A stretch of DNA of 64,000 bases, taken from the NCBI GenBank assembly GCA_947479535.1, contig CANJZQ010000002.1, positions 1 through 64,000 on the forward strand, written 5' to 3'. A program made the position numbers and the translations under genes. The notes beneath the pieces were generated by a model. That model did no database searches. It saw nothing but the letters and a program-made list of their open reading frames with translations, and was not told the DNA's origin. The stretch comes from Oligoflexales bacterium (GTDB lineage: Bacteria; Bdellovibrionota_B; Oligoflexia; Oligoflexales; RGVZ01). Numbering within the stretch: position 1 is the stretch's first letter; each line of letters starts with the position of its first letter. This document shows, one piece after another, positions 717 through 16,021 of the stretch.

Positions 717-1604
717 TTATTCGTAAAGGAAGAACTTTTCGCCCAGAATTTGAGCCGACGGAAACGCGCTCCAAACCGGGGTATGGCCACCGACGTCTTC
801 CGTATCCCGGCGAGTTCTTTGAGCAATTTCGAGGATCGTCGCATCACGGTCGGATGCGCTGGATTCATTGATGACGCCCCGTAAGGACCAGGTAAAGGCC
901 CCGCCACGGGTCCGGCCCAGATCTGCCGAGGTCTCGTTCTTGGTCGAAGAGGTCAAAACGAAGGCCTGGTTGAAGAGGGTCCCCTGAAATTTCCCAATCT
1001 CTGCCATTGCATCTTCAGAGCTGCTCAAAGCACCAGCCATAGGAATACACTTGCTGCGAATGCCATTTCCCTCACTCGACGGAATGATCGGCGTGCGGCC
1101 GTCGACAAAGGATCCGCTGTAGCAAGAGTCGATCATGACGACCAGGCGTGCGAGAGGACGGTTGTTGCGAGCCGTCATGACGGCTGTGGCAACTTCGGAA
1201 AACGTGAAGGACCGGTCTTCAGCCAACATGATGCCAGTATTGCCGTGGCCGGAAAAATACCAGAACAAGGTATCGGCATCAGAGGCTGCATCTGCGGTGG
1301 CAGAAAAAATATCGTCGGTGGTCGCCTCGTTGTCCTTCACCACTTCGTCAAATCCAAGATCGACCTGCGTGTTGCGAAACAACAAATCCAACTCTTGGAT
1401 GTCCGTGGGAACGCCCGGCAATCCATTCGGAGAGCCCATCAACACGGCAACGTTTTTTCCAGCGTCGCTGTGGGCAAGCCCCTTGAGCGATGTGCCAATG
1501 TGATTGGACGATCCGCCGCAGCCTGCGACCGAGCCAAAAACAAACAGCGAGACCAGCGAAAGACGACGACGAACACCATCAAGTAAAAACATGAGTTCCC
1601 CCAT
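717..1604 (-). CDS. caspase-like (peptidase C14) lipoprotein
   Basis: Lipobox-like VAGCGG near the N-terminus; catalytic dyad motifs FWYFSGHG and VVMIDSCYSGSF. Confidence 0.85.
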   Translation of the reverse strand: MGELMFLLDGVRRRLSLVSLFVFGSVAGCGGSSNHIGTSLKGLAHSDAGKNVAVLMGSPNGLPGVPTDIQELDLLFRNTQVDLGFDEVVKDNEATTDDIFSATADAASDADTLFWYFSGHGNTGIMLAEDRSFTFSEVATAVMTARNNRPLARLVVMIDSCYSGSFVDGRTPIIPSSEGNGIRSKCIPMAGALSSSEDAMAEIGKFQGTLFNQAFVLTSSTKNETSADLGRTRGGAFTWSLRGVINESSASDRDATILEIAQRTRRDTEDVGGHTPVWSAFPSAQILGEKFFLYE

Positions 1605-1743: not shown

Positions 1744-1788
1744 TTTTCAAATTGATCGCGGGCATCTGATGGGATCAGGTGACAGTGC
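1744..1788. repeat. copy 1 of a ~45-bp direct repeat flanking a two-gene cassette; contains REP-like hairpin CATCTGAT-GGG-ATCAGGTG
   Basis: TTTTCAAATTGATCGCGGGCATCTGATGGGATCAGGTGACAGTGC versus 2822-2866, 42/45 identical by eye. Confidence 0.85.
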
Positions 1789-1808
1789 ATTGGGAGGGCT
1801 TTCTTAGA

Positions 1809-2345
1809 TCACGCCGCATTGCGCGCGAAACGATGCCCGTGACGAATCATGAAATTACGGTAATTACGATCCGCAGCAATAGGATCACTACCGTCCCAAG
1901 ATGAATGTTCGCACGACAGCTCGAGTTGCTGAAGTTTTAGATGATAGGGACCTCGGTAGCTTAAAAATTCAAATTTGGACCGTGTCGCAAGATTGACTTG
2001 GGCCCACGAAATATAATTTGAAATTGGATCACCAGCACCCAAAGGAACGTTGATCTGGAGAAGCCAGTTTTTATGGGACCAAAAATCTACCCAGGAAATC
2101 TCACCCCATTCAAACGCCTCCCTCATGGGACAGCCCCCAGGAGCCTCGATTCCGTAAAGCGTAAATTCCCCATGTTCCTCATCTAAACCGCCAACGGCGA
2201 CTAGAAAAACAGACGATTTGTCGGGGGAATCAATTTCATGAAGTACGGCTTGGTGGTTTCGGTCGTAGGGTTCTGGACGCCGCGTACAACCAATTTGATC
2301 ACTCGTCCATCTTGGCGCAACATCATTTCTTGATTTGAAGTCCAT
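1809..2345 (-). CDS. hypothetical protein (cassette gene)
   Basis: ORF 1809..2405; GGGAGAG Shine-Dalgarno-like sequence precedes the internal ATG at 2345 (MDFKSRNDVAPRW). No family recognised. Confidence 0.55.
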   Translation of the reverse strand: MDFKSRNDVAPRWTSDQIGCTRRPEPYDRNHQAVLHEIDSPDKSSVFLVAVGGLDEEHGEFTLYGIEAPGGCPMREAFEWGEISWVDFWSHKNWLLQINVPLGAGDPISNYISWAQVNLATRSKFEFLSYRGPYHLKLQQLELSCEHSSWDGSDPIAADRNYRNFMIRHGHRFARNAA

Positions 2346-2424
2346 GCTTGCTCTCCCTAAATCTCCATCGGACCTTGGGGACAGGCAGTTAGTGGCACAA
2401 ATCATTTGCGTTTCATATCAATCA

Positions 2425-2781
2425 TTATTTAGTTCTAAAATTCCCATAGAAACAGCTGCCTAGGAACTGACGGTTCCGAACTAGAAGAGAATCAGGCAAG
2501 CGATACTTGATCACCGCCACGCCACATTTCGCGGTCACTGATCCAACAAATTCAATTTTCTCATTCCAATTAAGCGGATCCTCTAACCCCCAACCAATGA
2601 CTTCCAACACCTCTTTCACGCCCCGAATCAACTCATGCATACTCACATGATCCATCGTCATCTTGTAGGTTGTTTTTCCTGTCGGGGTGATTTCTAGAAC
2701 TACCTTGTGATGGTAGATCGTCTGACCTGACTTCAGAATAAAGTCCGGTGCCCGTCCGATAATAATTTGTTGCAAATTCAT
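2425..2781 (-). CDS. hypothetical protein (cassette gene)
   Basis: 118-aa ORF MNLQQIIIGRAPDFILKSGQTIYHHKV...; tandem with the previous ORF. No family recognised. Confidence 0.55.
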   Translation of the reverse strand: MNLQQIIIGRAPDFILKSGQTIYHHKVVLEITPTGKTTYKMTMDHVSMHELIRGVKEVLEVIGWGLEDPLNWNEKIEFVGSVTAKCGVAVIKYRLPDSLLVRNRQFLGSCFYGNFRTK

Positions 2782-2821
2782 ATCGCCTACTCCGCTGATC
2801 CAACGGAACCTTACAACAAGA

Positions 2822-2866
2822 TTTTCAATTTGAACGCGGACATCTGATGGGATCAGGTGACAGTGC
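2822..2866. repeat. copy 2 of the ~45-bp direct repeat
   Basis: TTTTCAATTTGAACGCGGACATCTGATGGGATCAGGTGACAGTGC; same orientation as copy 1, 1078 bp away. Confidence 0.85.
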
Positions 2867-2907: not shown

Positions 2908-4470
2908 TTACTGGGTCACCTTGCTGATGAACGCGTCGGCAGAAGCCAAAAGCGCCTTCTGCTGTGCGGGAGTCTTCTTGTTCCACATCGCGACCATCAT
3001 CGACAGGCGTGGGTTTTTTTGCAGGTACTGGAACTTTTCGGAAACGAATTTCCAGTACAGCCCATCCCACACCTCGCACCAAGGGCCCTTTTTCCAGTCG
3101 CTCATTTTCAGGATGTAATTTGACCCGCAAATATACGGTTTTGTCGCAAAAATGCCGCCATCGCTGAACTGGCCCATCCCATACACGTTGGGGCCCATGA
3201 CCCAATCAGACGAATCGACATACATCTCCATGAACCAACGGTGGACATCCTGTGGATGAACTTCGCACAGGAGCATGAGGCCGTTGATCACCATGAGGCG
3301 CTCGATGTGGTGGGCCCATCCGTACTTGATGGATTTGGCGAGCGCGTCATCTAGGGGCGGGATTCCGGTTGAGGCTTCGTACCACTGGGGGCCCAGGCGG
3401 CGCGTGTGCTTGAAAAAATTGGTCGTATCCTCTTTCTCGCTGAAGTTCTGGTAGATCCCCCGGATGAATTCGCGCCAGCCGATCACTTGGCGGATGAAGC
3501 CCTCAAGGCTGTTCATGGGGGTCTTGTAGGCTTCCGCGTGCTCCAGCGTCTTTTTTACGATGCCTTCCGGGGTCAACAACCCGAGGTTCATCGCCGGCGA
3601 AAGGACCGAGTGGAACAAGCTGAAGTGGTGTGGGGTGATGGCGTCCTCAAAACGTCCGAAGTTCGCGAGGCGTTTTTCGAGGAAATCGTCGAGCCACACA
3701 TCGGCTTGATCGAGCGTCACAGGCAACCAGAAGTCAGCAGATGATCCAGGATGGTCCGGAAACAACTCGTCCACGGCGGCACTGACTTCACGGACATGGG
3801 AGTTGGCTTTTATCTTTGGCAGGGACGGAATTTTCACATCGGGATCCAGGCGCTCACGGTTTTCCGTGTCAAAACTCCACTTGCCGCCGACAGGCTCGCC
3901 GGTCTTTGTAACGAGGATCCCCGATTCCTTGCGGCGCTGTTCGTAGAAGGTCTTCATGAAGGGCTTTTTCGTGCGCTTCAAATAGGCCTGGAACTCGTCG
4001 CGCCCCGTGAGGAACATGGGACTCTTCATGGTGAATTGAGGCAGGTTCATGCGCGCGGCGAGTTCATGGATCCTTTGCTCCATAAACTTGTCCTCGATCT
4101 CGAAGTGGACAAGGCCCTTGCCTGGATGTGCCTTTAAAAACGCGCCCAGTTTTTCTTCGAAGGTCTTTCTGCGCGCGGTGGCGTCCGTGATCTTGACGTA
4201 ATGGACCTGGTAGCCTGCGTCGCGCGCTGCATCGGCCCAGCTCCTCATCGCGGCGAGGAACAGGATGATCTTGTGTTTATGGAACTTGTAATAGGTACAA
4301 AGTTCTGGGTCCTCGGCCATGAAGATCGTGACACTTTGCCGAGGAGGCAGGTGCTTCACGGGGAACAGCTGGTTGCCAAAAACAAGAAGGACGCCTGAAG
4401 CGTCCTTCGGGAGGACGGTGTTCGCCGCGTTTGCTTTCACAGGAGCCTCGTCACACGTTTGGGTCAACAT
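2908..4470 (-). CDS. cryptochrome/deoxyribodipyrimidine photolyase-related protein (PhrB-like family)
   Basis: LLVFGNQLFP..., GFIRQVIGWREFIRGIYQ, WMEMYVDSSDWVMGPNVYGMGQFSDGG-type motifs characteristic of the photolyase-related family. Confidence 0.88.
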   Translation of the reverse strand: MLTQTCDEAPVKANAANTVLPKDASGVLLVFGNQLFPVKHLPPRQSVTIFMAEDPELCTYYKFHKHKIILFLAAMRSWADAARDAGYQVHYVKITDATARRKTFEEKLGAFLKAHPGKGLVHFEIEDKFMEQRIHELAARMNLPQFTMKSPMFLTGRDEFQAYLKRTKKPFMKTFYEQRRKESGILVTKTGEPVGGKWSFDTENRERLDPDVKIPSLPKIKANSHVREVSAAVDELFPDHPGSSADFWLPVTLDQADVWLDDFLEKRLANFGRFEDAITPHHFSLFHSVLSPAMNLGLLTPEGIVKKTLEHAEAYKTPMNSLEGFIRQVIGWREFIRGIYQNFSEKEDTTNFFKHTRRLGPQWYEASTGIPPLDDALAKSIKYGWAHHIERLMVINGLMLLCEVHPQDVHRWFMEMYVDSSDWVMGPNVYGMGQFSDGGIFATKPYICGSNYILKMSDWKKGPWCEVWDGLYWKFVSEKFQYLQKNPRLSMMVAMWNKKTPAQQKALLASADAFISKVTQ

Positions 4471-4595
4471 TTTGCAAAGTTATCCCATGCCAACGCCTCG
4501 AATTCAACTGCATGATCGGCGGCAAGCGACACGTCCTTGATCCTTTCCAACTTTGTCTTGATACCAGACACTGGCCGTCTCTCACTGGATGACCA

Positions 4596-4832
4596 ATGAT
4601 GTCACTTCACACCATGGGCCTTGATGGATTTCTTCGCATGACGTGTGAGGGTTGTGATCAAGAAAAAGTTGTAGCGTTTAGTTGTAAGAAACGAGGCTGG
4701 TGTCCATCGTGTTGCGCCAAACGCAAAACTGAAGCCGCTGATCATCTGGTGGACGACGTGCTGCCGCTGGTCCCCTACCGCCAGGCCTTCCCAGATTTTC
4801 CCGTTGCAAAATCGGTGGTTCTTATGCCTTAA
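4596..4832 (+). pseudogene. IS91-type transposase remnant (N-terminal zinc-binding region only)
   Basis: GFLRMTCEGCDQEKVVAFSCKKRGWCPSCCAKRKTEAADHLVDDVLPLVPYRQ matches the typical CxxC...FSCKxRGxCPSCxxxR signature; ORF ends after about 78 aa with no catalytic domain downstream. Confidence 0.75.
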
Positions 4833-4918
4833 GGACATTAAACGAATTGTCTGGAATAGATACCATCAGGTTGGTATCGAATGGCACTGATAATCAGTTA
4901 CTTAGAAGGGATCAGCTC

Positions 4919-5536
4919 ATGTGGCAAAAACGGTTAATTTTTCTTACGGGCATCTTGTTGTTCGCCTCGCAGCGCTCAATTGCGCAAATCGTAGCGGAGC
5001 CAACATCGTCTCCAAGTGAAGCGCCCTATTCGAGTTTCGCAGTGACCGTCAAAGGGGGAGCTACCGTTTTTAGTGGCGACCTTACAGCAAATAAAAAAGC
5101 ATATTACGATGGCTTCGCGTTGGTCAGCTTTTTCCAACGCACGAACTCTCCCCTAATGGCATACATTGGCATGGACGTTAGTGATATCAGCGGTGCTACT
5201 AGCAAGGCTGATGGATTTCCATTTAGTGACGACCGCTCGCTAACGGTGGCTTCAGTGATTTTTCCCGCGGTTGGTGTGTGCTTTCCGTTGCTGAGTCGCT
5301 CTCTAAAACCTTGCTTTGGCGGCGGAGTAGGTGCCATCGCAATACGAGATAAAGACGGAAATGATCAGACATATGGAAGCACTATTCTCAATTTGTCGAC
5401 CGCATATACTCTCGATAGTGGTCTCCAACTTGGTATTGAAAGTCGTTACTTCAACGTTTCTGAGCGAAGAAACAATATAAATTCGGAATTTGCAGCGCTG
5501 TCCTATGGAATAACAGTAGGGTGGGAGATGCGGTAG
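4919..5536 (+). CDS. probable outer-membrane/beta-barrel protein
   Basis: Signal-peptide-like MWQKRLIFLTGILLFASQRSIAQ at an internal start; alternating-hydrophobicity C-terminal strands (LSYGITVGWEMR). Confidence 0.5.
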   Translation: MWQKRLIFLTGILLFASQRSIAQIVAEPTSSPSEAPYSSFAVTVKGGATVFSGDLTANKKAYYDGFALVSFFQRTNSPLMAYIGMDVSDISGATSKADGFPFSDDRSLTVASVIFPAVGVCFPLLSRSLKPCFGGGVGAIAIRDKDGNDQTYGSTILNLSTAYTLDSGLQLGIESRYFNVSERRNNINSEFAALSYGITVGWEMR

Positions 5537-6080
5537 AGAGGTTACAAGAAACAGGTATCGCGGGTTCGTGATTGAAATGGCCCCCGTTTGAACCGGACAT
5601 TCGAGTTGGGCGTGGCTTCTTTCTCGTGCTCCGCCCAGGTGCGAATCCGTGATGCTGGAGTTTGACACGGCATATCCTGCGGTGGATCCGGTCTCGGACG
5701 TAACACCCACCTGACGACGGACTTAACGATGCAGGCGACGGACCCCAGCTCGGACTAAATCAAGCATAGATGTGTTGCAGGCGGCGCCATGAAAATGGAC
5801 GCGGTGGTGAGGTGTACTCAAAAAACGGGGTGGGGAAGGAAAACGCAAGGAAGGTGGGGCGGAAGGTGAGATATTGGTCGGTCTTACCGGCCAGATTTCA
5901 CGCAGCTAGAGGTTTGTGGTGCGAAAACGGTTGCGGGAACGGCGGCGGGATAGATCGTGAAGTGTGCTTAAGTTTCCTACAATCTGATGGATGTTTGCTA
6001 ACGGCTTCCAAAAAAGGGCAGGTATGCTTACCTTAGGGCTTCAAAAAATATCCGTTTTTTTTCGGGCAAGGAGTCGTCGG

Positions 6081-7107: not shown

Positions 7108-7144
7108 GTGGCGTCCGTGATCTTGACGTAATGGACCTGATAGC
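7108..7144. repeat. 37-bp duplicated fragment of the photolyase gene
   Basis: GTGGCGTCCGTGATCTTGACGTAATGGACCTGATAGC versus 4178-4214 inside the phr-like gene; 36/37 identical. Antisense encodes YQVHYVKITDAT in both. Confidence 0.85.
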
Positions 7145-8299: not shown

Positions 8300-9568
8300 T
8301 CAAGTCCAAATCTTGTAAAGCGGATAACGACCCGCAAGATCCATCACATCACGGCGCAAGATGGCCAGCTTTTCATCGTTCTTCACATGTTCAAATGCCG
8401 TTCGCGTGAACCGCGCAATCAACACCATCTCATCAGGGCCCATGCCACGAGTGGTCAGGGCTGGAGTCCCCATGCGAATTCCACTGGTCACAAATGGTGA
8501 ACGCTTCTCATTCGGAACCGTGTTTTTATTGACCGTGATGGCGGCCTTGCCCAAGGCTTCTTCCAGTTGTTTGCCGCTCACCGATACCGGAGAAAGATCG
8601 ATCAGCAAAAGGTGATTATCCGTCCCGCCGGACACGATTTTGAAATCCACATCCATCAAAGCTTTTGCCAAGACCGCGGCATTTGTGACGACCTGCTGCT
8701 GATAGGTGCGGAATTCAGGGCGCAGCGCCTCACGAAAACAAACGGCCTTCGCCGCAATGATGTGCTCCAAAGGTCCACCCTGGATGCCCGGAAACATTGC
8801 CTTGTTGAGTTTGATCGCAAGGTCGTCGTCATTCGTAAGGATCAAACCACCGCGCGGCCCGCGCAGGGTCTTGTGCGTTGTGGTCGTTACAACATGCGCA
8901 TGGGGAACGGGACTTGGATGAACCCCGGCAGCAACCAGGCCTGCAATGTGCGCCATGTCGACCAATAGATACGCCCCGACTTCGTCGGCAATGGCGCGGA
9001 ATTTTGCAAAATCAATGACTCGTGAATAGGCGCTGGCGCCAGCCAAAATCATCCGGGGACGGACCTCAAGGGCTTTTTCACGAACGGCATCGTAGTTGAT
9101 GGTTTCTGTGACGGGATCGACACCGTAGAAATGCGATTCGTAAAGAATCCCGGAGAAATTGACTTTGGAACCATGGGTCAAATGCCCACCGTGTGCGAGG
9201 TCTAGACCAAGGATTTTGTCGCCAGGCTTTAACAAGCCAAGGTAAACGGCGGCGTTGGCTTGGGCGCCAGAGTGGGGCTGGACGTTGGCGTGACGGGCTT
9301 CAAACAGAGTGCAAGCGCGGCTGATGGCCAGGGCTTCGACTTGATCCACAACCTCACAGCCGCCGTAATAGCGTTTCCCGGGAAGTCCTTCCGCGTACTT
9401 GTTGGTCAGCGGATTTGCGGCGGCAGACAAAACTGCGGGGGACGCAAAATTTTCCGAAGCAATGAGTTCGAGCCCGTGTCGCTGGCGCCCTAACTCTTCT
9501 TGAATCAAATTAAAAATATCCGGGTCAGACTGTTGCAGGATTGCCCAAGGCGATTCGCGGTGGCTCAT
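8300..9568 (-). CDS. glyA: serine hydroxymethyltransferase
   Basis: [42 protein letters not shown]. Confidence 0.97.
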
Positions 9569-14530: not shown

Positions 14531-16021
14531 CTAGATCTTTTCCACCTGGTGGTTCGATCCATCAAAGGTAACCCGACGCCTTGAATCTTCGACCATCGTC
14601 TCAATATGCACTGGCCTGCGCCATATTTTAAAAATATTCTTGAGTGTTTCCAGTGCGAAATCATGTTTCAGGTCGACGCCCTCGTGCTGATGAAGTAGCA
14701 GGAGTTCTCCGCGATTCTTGAAATTGCCGTCTTTTACCGCGATGACAGGCTGCCCGAAGTTGGTCAGCTGCTGAAGGAGACGCTGTTTGATCTCAGAAAA
14801 GTCCCGTCCCGAAATGACATGCTGACCGCTGCGGCGGTCAAAATCATAAATAAACATTTTGCTTTCATGACAGAAATCCTCATCCAGAAATTCATCAATG
14901 AAGGTAATGTCATTGTGAATCCTACGGATTTCAAAAAGCTTGGCGCGCCCTTGATTGGCCCTGGTGTCCCATTCAGAACGCTTTTTCGGATCATCGCAGT
15001 CTGTGTAATCCTTGCCAAATCGCCCTTTGTCCCAGCGGCGCTCCACGTGTCGCAGGAGCTCAACGCCCAGTTTGTACGGGTTTAATTGACCTGGCTGGGC
15101 AGCCACGATTCCCGCATACTGTTCGCAATAATCAACAATCTCGCTTTCCGTCAGCGGGGCAAGTTTGGTCATCATCTCGCTGTGCCAGTATGTGGCCCAG
15201 CCTTCGTTCATGATTTTTGTCTGACCTTGCGGAGCAAAATAGTAGGATTCATCGCGAATGATCTCGAGAATCCGCTTCTGCCAATGATCGAATGGCGCAT
15301 GATCGATCAGGAATTTCAGGACATCCCGCTCTGGATTCTCGGGAAACCCACGCTGTTTTTCCGCAGCCTGCACCTGCTTTTGAGCCTGGGCATCAAGGAA
15401 TTCCTTTGGATTGACATAGCGGTCCATGTAGGACTTTGCCCTGATCTTGGGCACGCCTTTTGGCCGGGCAGCCTCGTCGCCAACTTCAGATTTTTTAAGT
15501 GCGGGGCGGAAAGGCGCGTGAATATCAATCAGGTTTTCGATCGATAAACAGACATCGATGAAGGATTCCACTTCATCGTGGCCGACATCATTGATCACAG
15601 ACCTGATGTACGCCGCATGATTCGCCATTTGATCCAGCATTTTTCGGTTTGTCTTGCTGAACCAGTAATTATTCTTGAAAAAATCGCAGTGGGCATAGAC
15701 GTGCGCCATCACCGTTTTTTGAAACGCGAGGCTATTTGCACGCAGCAGATAAGCGTAGCAAGGGTTGGTGTTGATCACCATTTCATAAATCGTTGACAGG
15801 CCATACGTGTAGCTTTTCGAAAGCCGGTCGTATTCCATGCCAAAACGCCAGTGGGGATATCTTGTCGGAAAACCGCCATAAGCCGCGATTTCGTTGAGTT
15901 GCTGATAGTCGATCAGTTCGAAAATGGTTGGAAAAAAATCAAGTCCAGCAGTCCTCGCCACATCGGCAAGCTTTCCGGCCACATCCCGCAGTTCAGGGGT
16001 TAATTGAGTTTTAAACTCCAT
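14531..16021 (-). CDS. SpoVR/YcgB family protein
   Basis: MNEGWATYWHSEMMTKL, RVFEIRR/DFCHESKMFIYDFD typical SpoVR motifs; ATG at 16021. Confidence 0.92.
   Translation of the reverse strand: MEFKTQLTPELRDVAGKLADVARTAGLDFFPTIFELIDYQQLNEIAAYGGFPTRYPHWRFGMEYDRLSKSYTYGLSTIYEMVINTNPCYAYLLRANSLAFQKTVMAHVYAHCDFFKNNYWFSKTNRKMLDQMANHAAYIRSVINDVGHDEVESFIDVCLSIENLIDIHAPFRPALKKSEVGDEAARPKGVPKIRAKSYMDRYVNPKEFLDAQAQKQVQAAEKQRGFPENPERDVLKFLIDHAPFDHWQKRILEIIRDESYYFAPQGQTKIMNEGWATYWHSEMMTKLAPLTESEIVDYCEQYAGIVAAQPGQLNPYKLGVELLRHVERRWDKGRFGKDYTDCDDPKKRSEWDTRANQGRAKLFEIRRIHNDITFIDEFLDEDFCHESKMFIYDFDRRSGQHVISGRDFSEIKQRLLQQLTNFGQPVIAVKDGNFKNRGELLLLHQHEGVDLKHDFALETLKNIFKIWRRPVHIETMVEDSRRRVTFDGSNHQVEKI

Follow-up and report, generated by a model that had tools for sequence, protein, structure and literature searches.

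Variable segments flanked by direct repeats are a common type of bacterial indel, and small segments of this kind are known to arise by recombination or slippage at short repeats (PMC2884548). In these indels, one genome carries the segment and the empty allele of a relative keeps one repeat; most of the repeats are shorter than 30 bp, and generic recombination or slippage is enough to produce such indels (PMC2884548). Homology-facilitated illegitimate recombination, or Campbell-type insertion, is discussed in the same paper as a process in which short homology anchors foreign DNA (PMC2884548). Integron cassettes consist of one or more genes with an imperfect-hairpin site (attC) on the 3' side, lie in the same orientation, and leave one copy of the site at the empty position. 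Toxin-antitoxin islets such as VapBC and HicAB pair a small gene with a larger one and are patchy and multi-copy.

The window, which is the whole 64,000-nucleotide stretch of DNA that was analysed, belongs to genome G000 (2.40 Mb, 72 contigs, 90.65% complete) and holds an instance of this known type of small variable segment, carrying a gene pair without prior description (Table 1). The first-pass annotation had reported two direct repeats of about 45 bp, 1078 bp apart and enclosing two ORFs, and this layout is borne out in full: the copies are identical at 42 of 45 positions (93%), start 1078 bp from each other, and share an exact 26-nt core (1763-1788 and 2841-2866). The segment is present here and absent from the sister species G001, whose empty allele carries one repeat, which places the locus among the direct-repeat-flanked variable segments. 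As in the described cases, generic recombination or slippage suffices. Unlike them, this segment carries two genes as a complete unit, about 1 kb in all, and its 45-bp repeat falls on the edge of a neighbouring mobile block. The locus also resembles homology-facilitated illegitimate recombination in that short homology would anchor foreign DNA; unlike in that process, both junctions lie in one short repeat, so a single-crossover insertion fits more closely.

Table 1. Features of the variable segment and its surroundings (positions in the window).
Feature	Position	Strand	Remark
Caspase-like (Peptidase C14) gene	717..1604	-	left flank of hotspot
Left repeat copy, 45 bp	1744..1788	+	5' half matches left flank of G001 empty site
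Inserted segment, 1033 bp	1789..2821		absent from orthologous locus of sister species G001
Gene A, 178 aa	1809..2345	-	downstream gene of pair; AlphaFold mean pLDDT 93, without PDB match
Gene B, 118 aa	2425..2781	-	upstream gene of pair; AlphaFold mean pLDDT 84
Right repeat copy, 45 bp	2822..2866	+	constant core from about 2833
DPRP-type photolyase-related gene	2908..4470	-	97-99% identical in G001 and (fragment) in G003 at another locus
IS91-family remnant	4573..5989	+	zinc-binding N-terminus 4596-4832, IS91 3' end about 5623-5989

The repeat pair is not a product of chance. Its BLAST E value is about 1e-13 in a search within 9 kb, the exact 26-nt core has an expectation of 0 from shuffles, and no exact repeat of at least 16 nt arose in 200 shuffles of 6 kb. 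A pattern search of the 2.40-Mb source genome at up to 3 mismatches returned these two copies only. A high-copy dispersed repeat was rejected on that count, and the hundreds of unrelated copies that the first-pass annotation had named as evidence against a cassette are absent from the genome at that threshold. Across genomes, the core at up to 3 mismatches occurs in 2 of 56 and adjoins no B-A unit (gene B followed by gene A) besides that of the window. Further near-matches are few and lie in G005 and G006; the best, in G005, sits inside an unrelated coding sequence, and the two in G006 carry 3 mismatches. A more diverged copy in G003 belongs to the photolyase-related gene. An Rfam search of the repeat matched no known RNA element, and no phage or plasmid carriers of the repeat were found. 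A tRNA/att-site genomic island was considered and rejected, the 64-kb window having no detectable tRNA at the repeat or elsewhere.

The sister species supplies the empty site, with one repeat, that had been proposed as a check. In G001 (loci L005/L038), a single repeat lies between the same flanks, with the junction sequence TTTTTCAAATTGATCGCGGACATCAGATGGGATCAGGTGACAGTGCGGGGATCG, and the cassette is absent. The neighbourhood otherwise matches that of the source genome, with ribB, the caspase-like gene, and the photolyase-related gene all present. The presence/absence unit is thus the 1033-bp segment plus one repeat, and in outcome this bears out the first-pass reading of the layout as a mobile or excisable cassette or a duplication footprint. 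To the left of the repeat, the two genomes are about 92% identical; to its right, identity rises to about 98% (97.7%, photolyase block). The single copy of G001 consists of the left half of the left copy joined to the right half of the right copy, and one crossover at repeat positions 13-19 (within CGCGG) explains all 3 differences between the copies with no extra mutation. One change private to G001 remains in the repeat (CATCAGATG). All of the compared genomes are MAGs, in which a misassembly at the repeat is possible, and the shortness of the identical core makes such an artefact unlikely.

The constant core of the right repeat is the 3' edge of a photolyase block common to G001 and G003. 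In G003, a fragment of this block is 97% identical and lies at another locus, whereas the backbone here is only about 79% identical; homology to the block begins at AACGCGGACATC / AACGCGGACATCTGATGGGATC, which is the repeat core. The core therefore marks the 3' limit of a photolyase block that moves horizontally and has entered a hotspot in the rib cluster. The gap between ribE and the caspase-like gene is read as an insertion hotspot because the two genes are adjacent in G002 and G003, with nothing between them. The core is missing from all other copies of the B-A pair, and on these comparisons the repeat was borrowed from the neighbouring mobile block. The suggestion that the cassette recombines at a site of its own, the repeat, therefore falls, since the repeat travels with the photolyase block in G003 and the other B-A pairs lack it.

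Four species of the genus have the caspase-like gene (717-1604) between ribE and ribB. A 37-nt direct repeat (36/37) at 4178-4214 and 7108-7144 places a fragment of the photolyase gene beside ribE, and it is another scar of the photolyase block. The gap between ribE and the caspase-like gene also contains IS91-family remnants. An ORF at 4847-5536 lies within the degenerate IS91-family element of the window; by eye it resembles an outer-membrane protein, and it has no Pfam match. In G001, the IS91/ORF module lies between two 163-bp direct copies of the photolyase 5' end (L038 13715-13877 / 14908-15070).

The preferred reading, with a probability of roughly 0.6, is that the segment is a small accessory B-A islet in the hypervariable rib-cluster gap, gained or lost by general recombination between the repeats. 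Such recombination, either RecA-dependent or by replication slippage, would yield the presence/absence pattern. In one version, a molecule carrying B-A beside photolyase-edge sequence would have entered by a single-crossover (Campbell-type) insertion, bringing the pair together with its own version of the repeat; the other version is the reversal, a deletion in G001. General recombination or slippage is favoured over a dedicated site-specific system because no integron integrase (IntI) over cut-off, tRNA, transposase, or Rfam family was found. Against this reading, the identical stretch of 26 nt is close to, or short of, the length that RecA usually requires. Also against a crossover in the core, the 13 bp to its left are alike between the copies (11/13), a likeness that such a crossover does not require. 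A search for a B-A donor locus with the photolyase-edge repeat found none.

Deletion in G001 would make the filled state ancestral in the G000/G001 lineage. This direction of change is possible and somewhat doubtful. Deletion occurs readily between short direct repeats at a distance of about 1 kb, and the G001 single copy has the combined halves that a deletion between the repeats would leave. Conversely, the photolyase 3' edge of G003 has no B-A beside it, and the composition of the cassette differs from that of its flanks as if it were recently acquired, neither point being decisive. Specifically, cassette G+C is 46.5% versus 53.3% for the window, and 1.1% of equal-sized stretches are as low.

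A dedicated site-specific cassette is unlikely. Here a trans-acting recombinase would use the hairpin-bearing core of about 30 bp (CATCTGATGGGATCAGGTG) as an att site in an integron- or Xer-like manner, and the photolyase block and the B-A unit would both be gene-plus-site cassettes. Some features agree with this and recall integron cassettes: in both modules the genes lie on the minus strand with the site on their 3' side, the core holds an 8-bp imperfect stem, the two copies differ as one crossover predicts, and one copy stays at the empty site. However, the arms of the stem are separated by a 3-bp spacer only, there is no clear GTTRRRY/RYYYAAC pair, and an attC-like site common to different cassettes was not found, the core standing beside no B-A unit other than that of the window. 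The few further near-matches, with the best of them in unrelated coding sequence, also weigh against a dispersed att site. The cassette itself contains no recombinase. The TIGR02249 (IntI) profile scored over cut-off in 0 of 10 family genomes (MAGs 66-97% complete), which gave weak tyrosine-recombinase matches only. An integron was rejected on the lack of IntI over cut-off and of attC boxes conserved by eye.

Less likely still is a target-site duplication, in which a transposed element would have duplicated 45 bp and the copies then diverged by 3 substitutions. This would account for the likeness of the full 45 bp in both copies and for an empty site with one copy. However, 45 bp is far above the ordinary length of transposase-made duplications, and the 3 additional mutations are an extra cost, which by itself is not decisive. 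The segment (1789-2821) holds no detectable transposase or recombinase gene and no reported end-to-end inverted repeats, so that neither mark of a transposon with target-site duplication, the transposase or the terminal inverted repeats, was found in it. The nearby IS91-family elements are of a type not known to duplicate its target, and this is counted here against the duplication. It is very improbable that metagenome assembly joined the cassette to the contig via the short repeat. The contigs are indeed MAG contigs, and of 23 A loci, 14 are no more than 2.6 kb from a contig end. Against an artefact, the identical stretch of 26 nt is shorter than the k-mers commonly used in assembly, the repeat does not occur in high copy number, and both flanks agree with G001.

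The islet gained or lost in the preferred reading consists of A and B only, which are two minus-strand ORFs (1809-2405 and 2425-2781 as called) and the only ORFs of the segment; the segment has no Pfam match. Gene A as called encodes 198 aa, and alignment of homologues puts its likely start at 2345. Compared with the second pair of the source genome (C61), which is itself conserved in G001, A differs at 53/26/100 sites and B at 33/28/47 sites at codon positions 1/2/3. The excess of differences at the third codon position marks both as real coding genes under selection. Pfam and NCBIfam searches of A and B gave no convincing family match, nor did a PHROGs search of A. Weak single-member Pfam/NCBIfam matches (OSCP/ATP synthase delta, BamD, Imm33-like) were dismissed, other members being without them. 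PDB fold searches of both AlphaFold models and a viral fold search of A returned nothing below E 0.04, with TM-scores of about 0.1-0.4. No carriers were found among phages and plasmids for A or among plasmids for B.

A and B belong to two lineage-restricted families without prior description. Of 58 genomes searched across the phylum, 5 carry A, and these all belong to one taxonomic family; B is confined to the same family save for one weak match elsewhere. Named records with the pair are freshwater-type MAGs labelled Pseudobacteriovorax, Bdellovibrio, and Oligoflexales, the freshwater label being taken from sample names. The gene order is B then A at nearly all loci with both genes resolved, with a spacing of 29-121 nt, and at one locus the two are fused in a single 326-aa ORF (G006 L047 2756-3733). 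A mirror-tree comparison of A and B distances gives r=0.80, and 0 of 5000 permutations are as high. G006 contains about 14 A matches, and tandem B-A arrays account for some of them. By these comparisons, the pair is conserved, near-obligate, co-evolving, multi-copy, and often tandem.

Direct repeats recur around B-A units, with sequences that differ from the window repeat. One B-A unit of G005 has on either side a 108-bp repeat (98%) that consists of the 3' end of A itself, and the G006 arrays carry 52-bp and 237-bp direct repeats. Two loci adjoin toxin-antitoxin-type islets. In G005, 46-bp direct repeats (L042 7698-7743 / 8904-8949) bracket a PIN-domain (VapC-like) gene and a small partner; this islet adjoins an A gene and has B fragments at its edges. 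In G006, 31-bp repeats of a tRNA-Leu-like end (L045 1166-1196 / 2353-2383) bracket a HicAB-like islet directly after a B-A pair, with the HicAB and tRNA-Leu readings made partly by eye.

An addiction- or defence-like role is plausible for the pair because two B-A loci adjoin such islets. Like VapBC and HicAB, the pair joins a small and a larger gene, is patchy and multi-copy, and occupies similar niches in G005 and G006; unlike them, its genes lie apart and do not overlap. The first-pass annotation had raised a toxin-immunity or defence-like function. The near-obligate, co-evolving, multi-copy nature of the pair and its two positions beside toxin-antitoxin-type islets agree with this suggestion. 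The searches lend it no support: A and B have no convincing similarity to the tested toxin and antitoxin families (Pfam, NCBIfam, PADLOC, PDB folds), and PADLOC models of known anti-phage defence gave no match below E 0.02 for either gene. At the level of a guess, the products of A and B may work jointly, possibly in a single complex, and serve an accessory function of the addiction or defence kind. That the pair is a new class of two-gene addiction/defence module of Oligoflexia-type bacteria, excisable via hairpin-bearing repeats and a trans-acting host recombinase, is improbable.

The filled and empty alleles form a natural pair that shows very small gene units entering or leaving a genome without a recognisable transposase, and they bring out a gene pair, restricted to one lineage, with copy numbers of up to about 14 per genome. 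Should the pair be an addiction or defence module, it would constitute a new family whose fold is unmatched in the PDB. AAA_14/DUF4143 ATPase genes adjoin two B-A units (L048 3139-3708, L049 5761-6834), and an ATPase gene of this type also occurs in the G001 version of the hotspot (L038 15133-16131).
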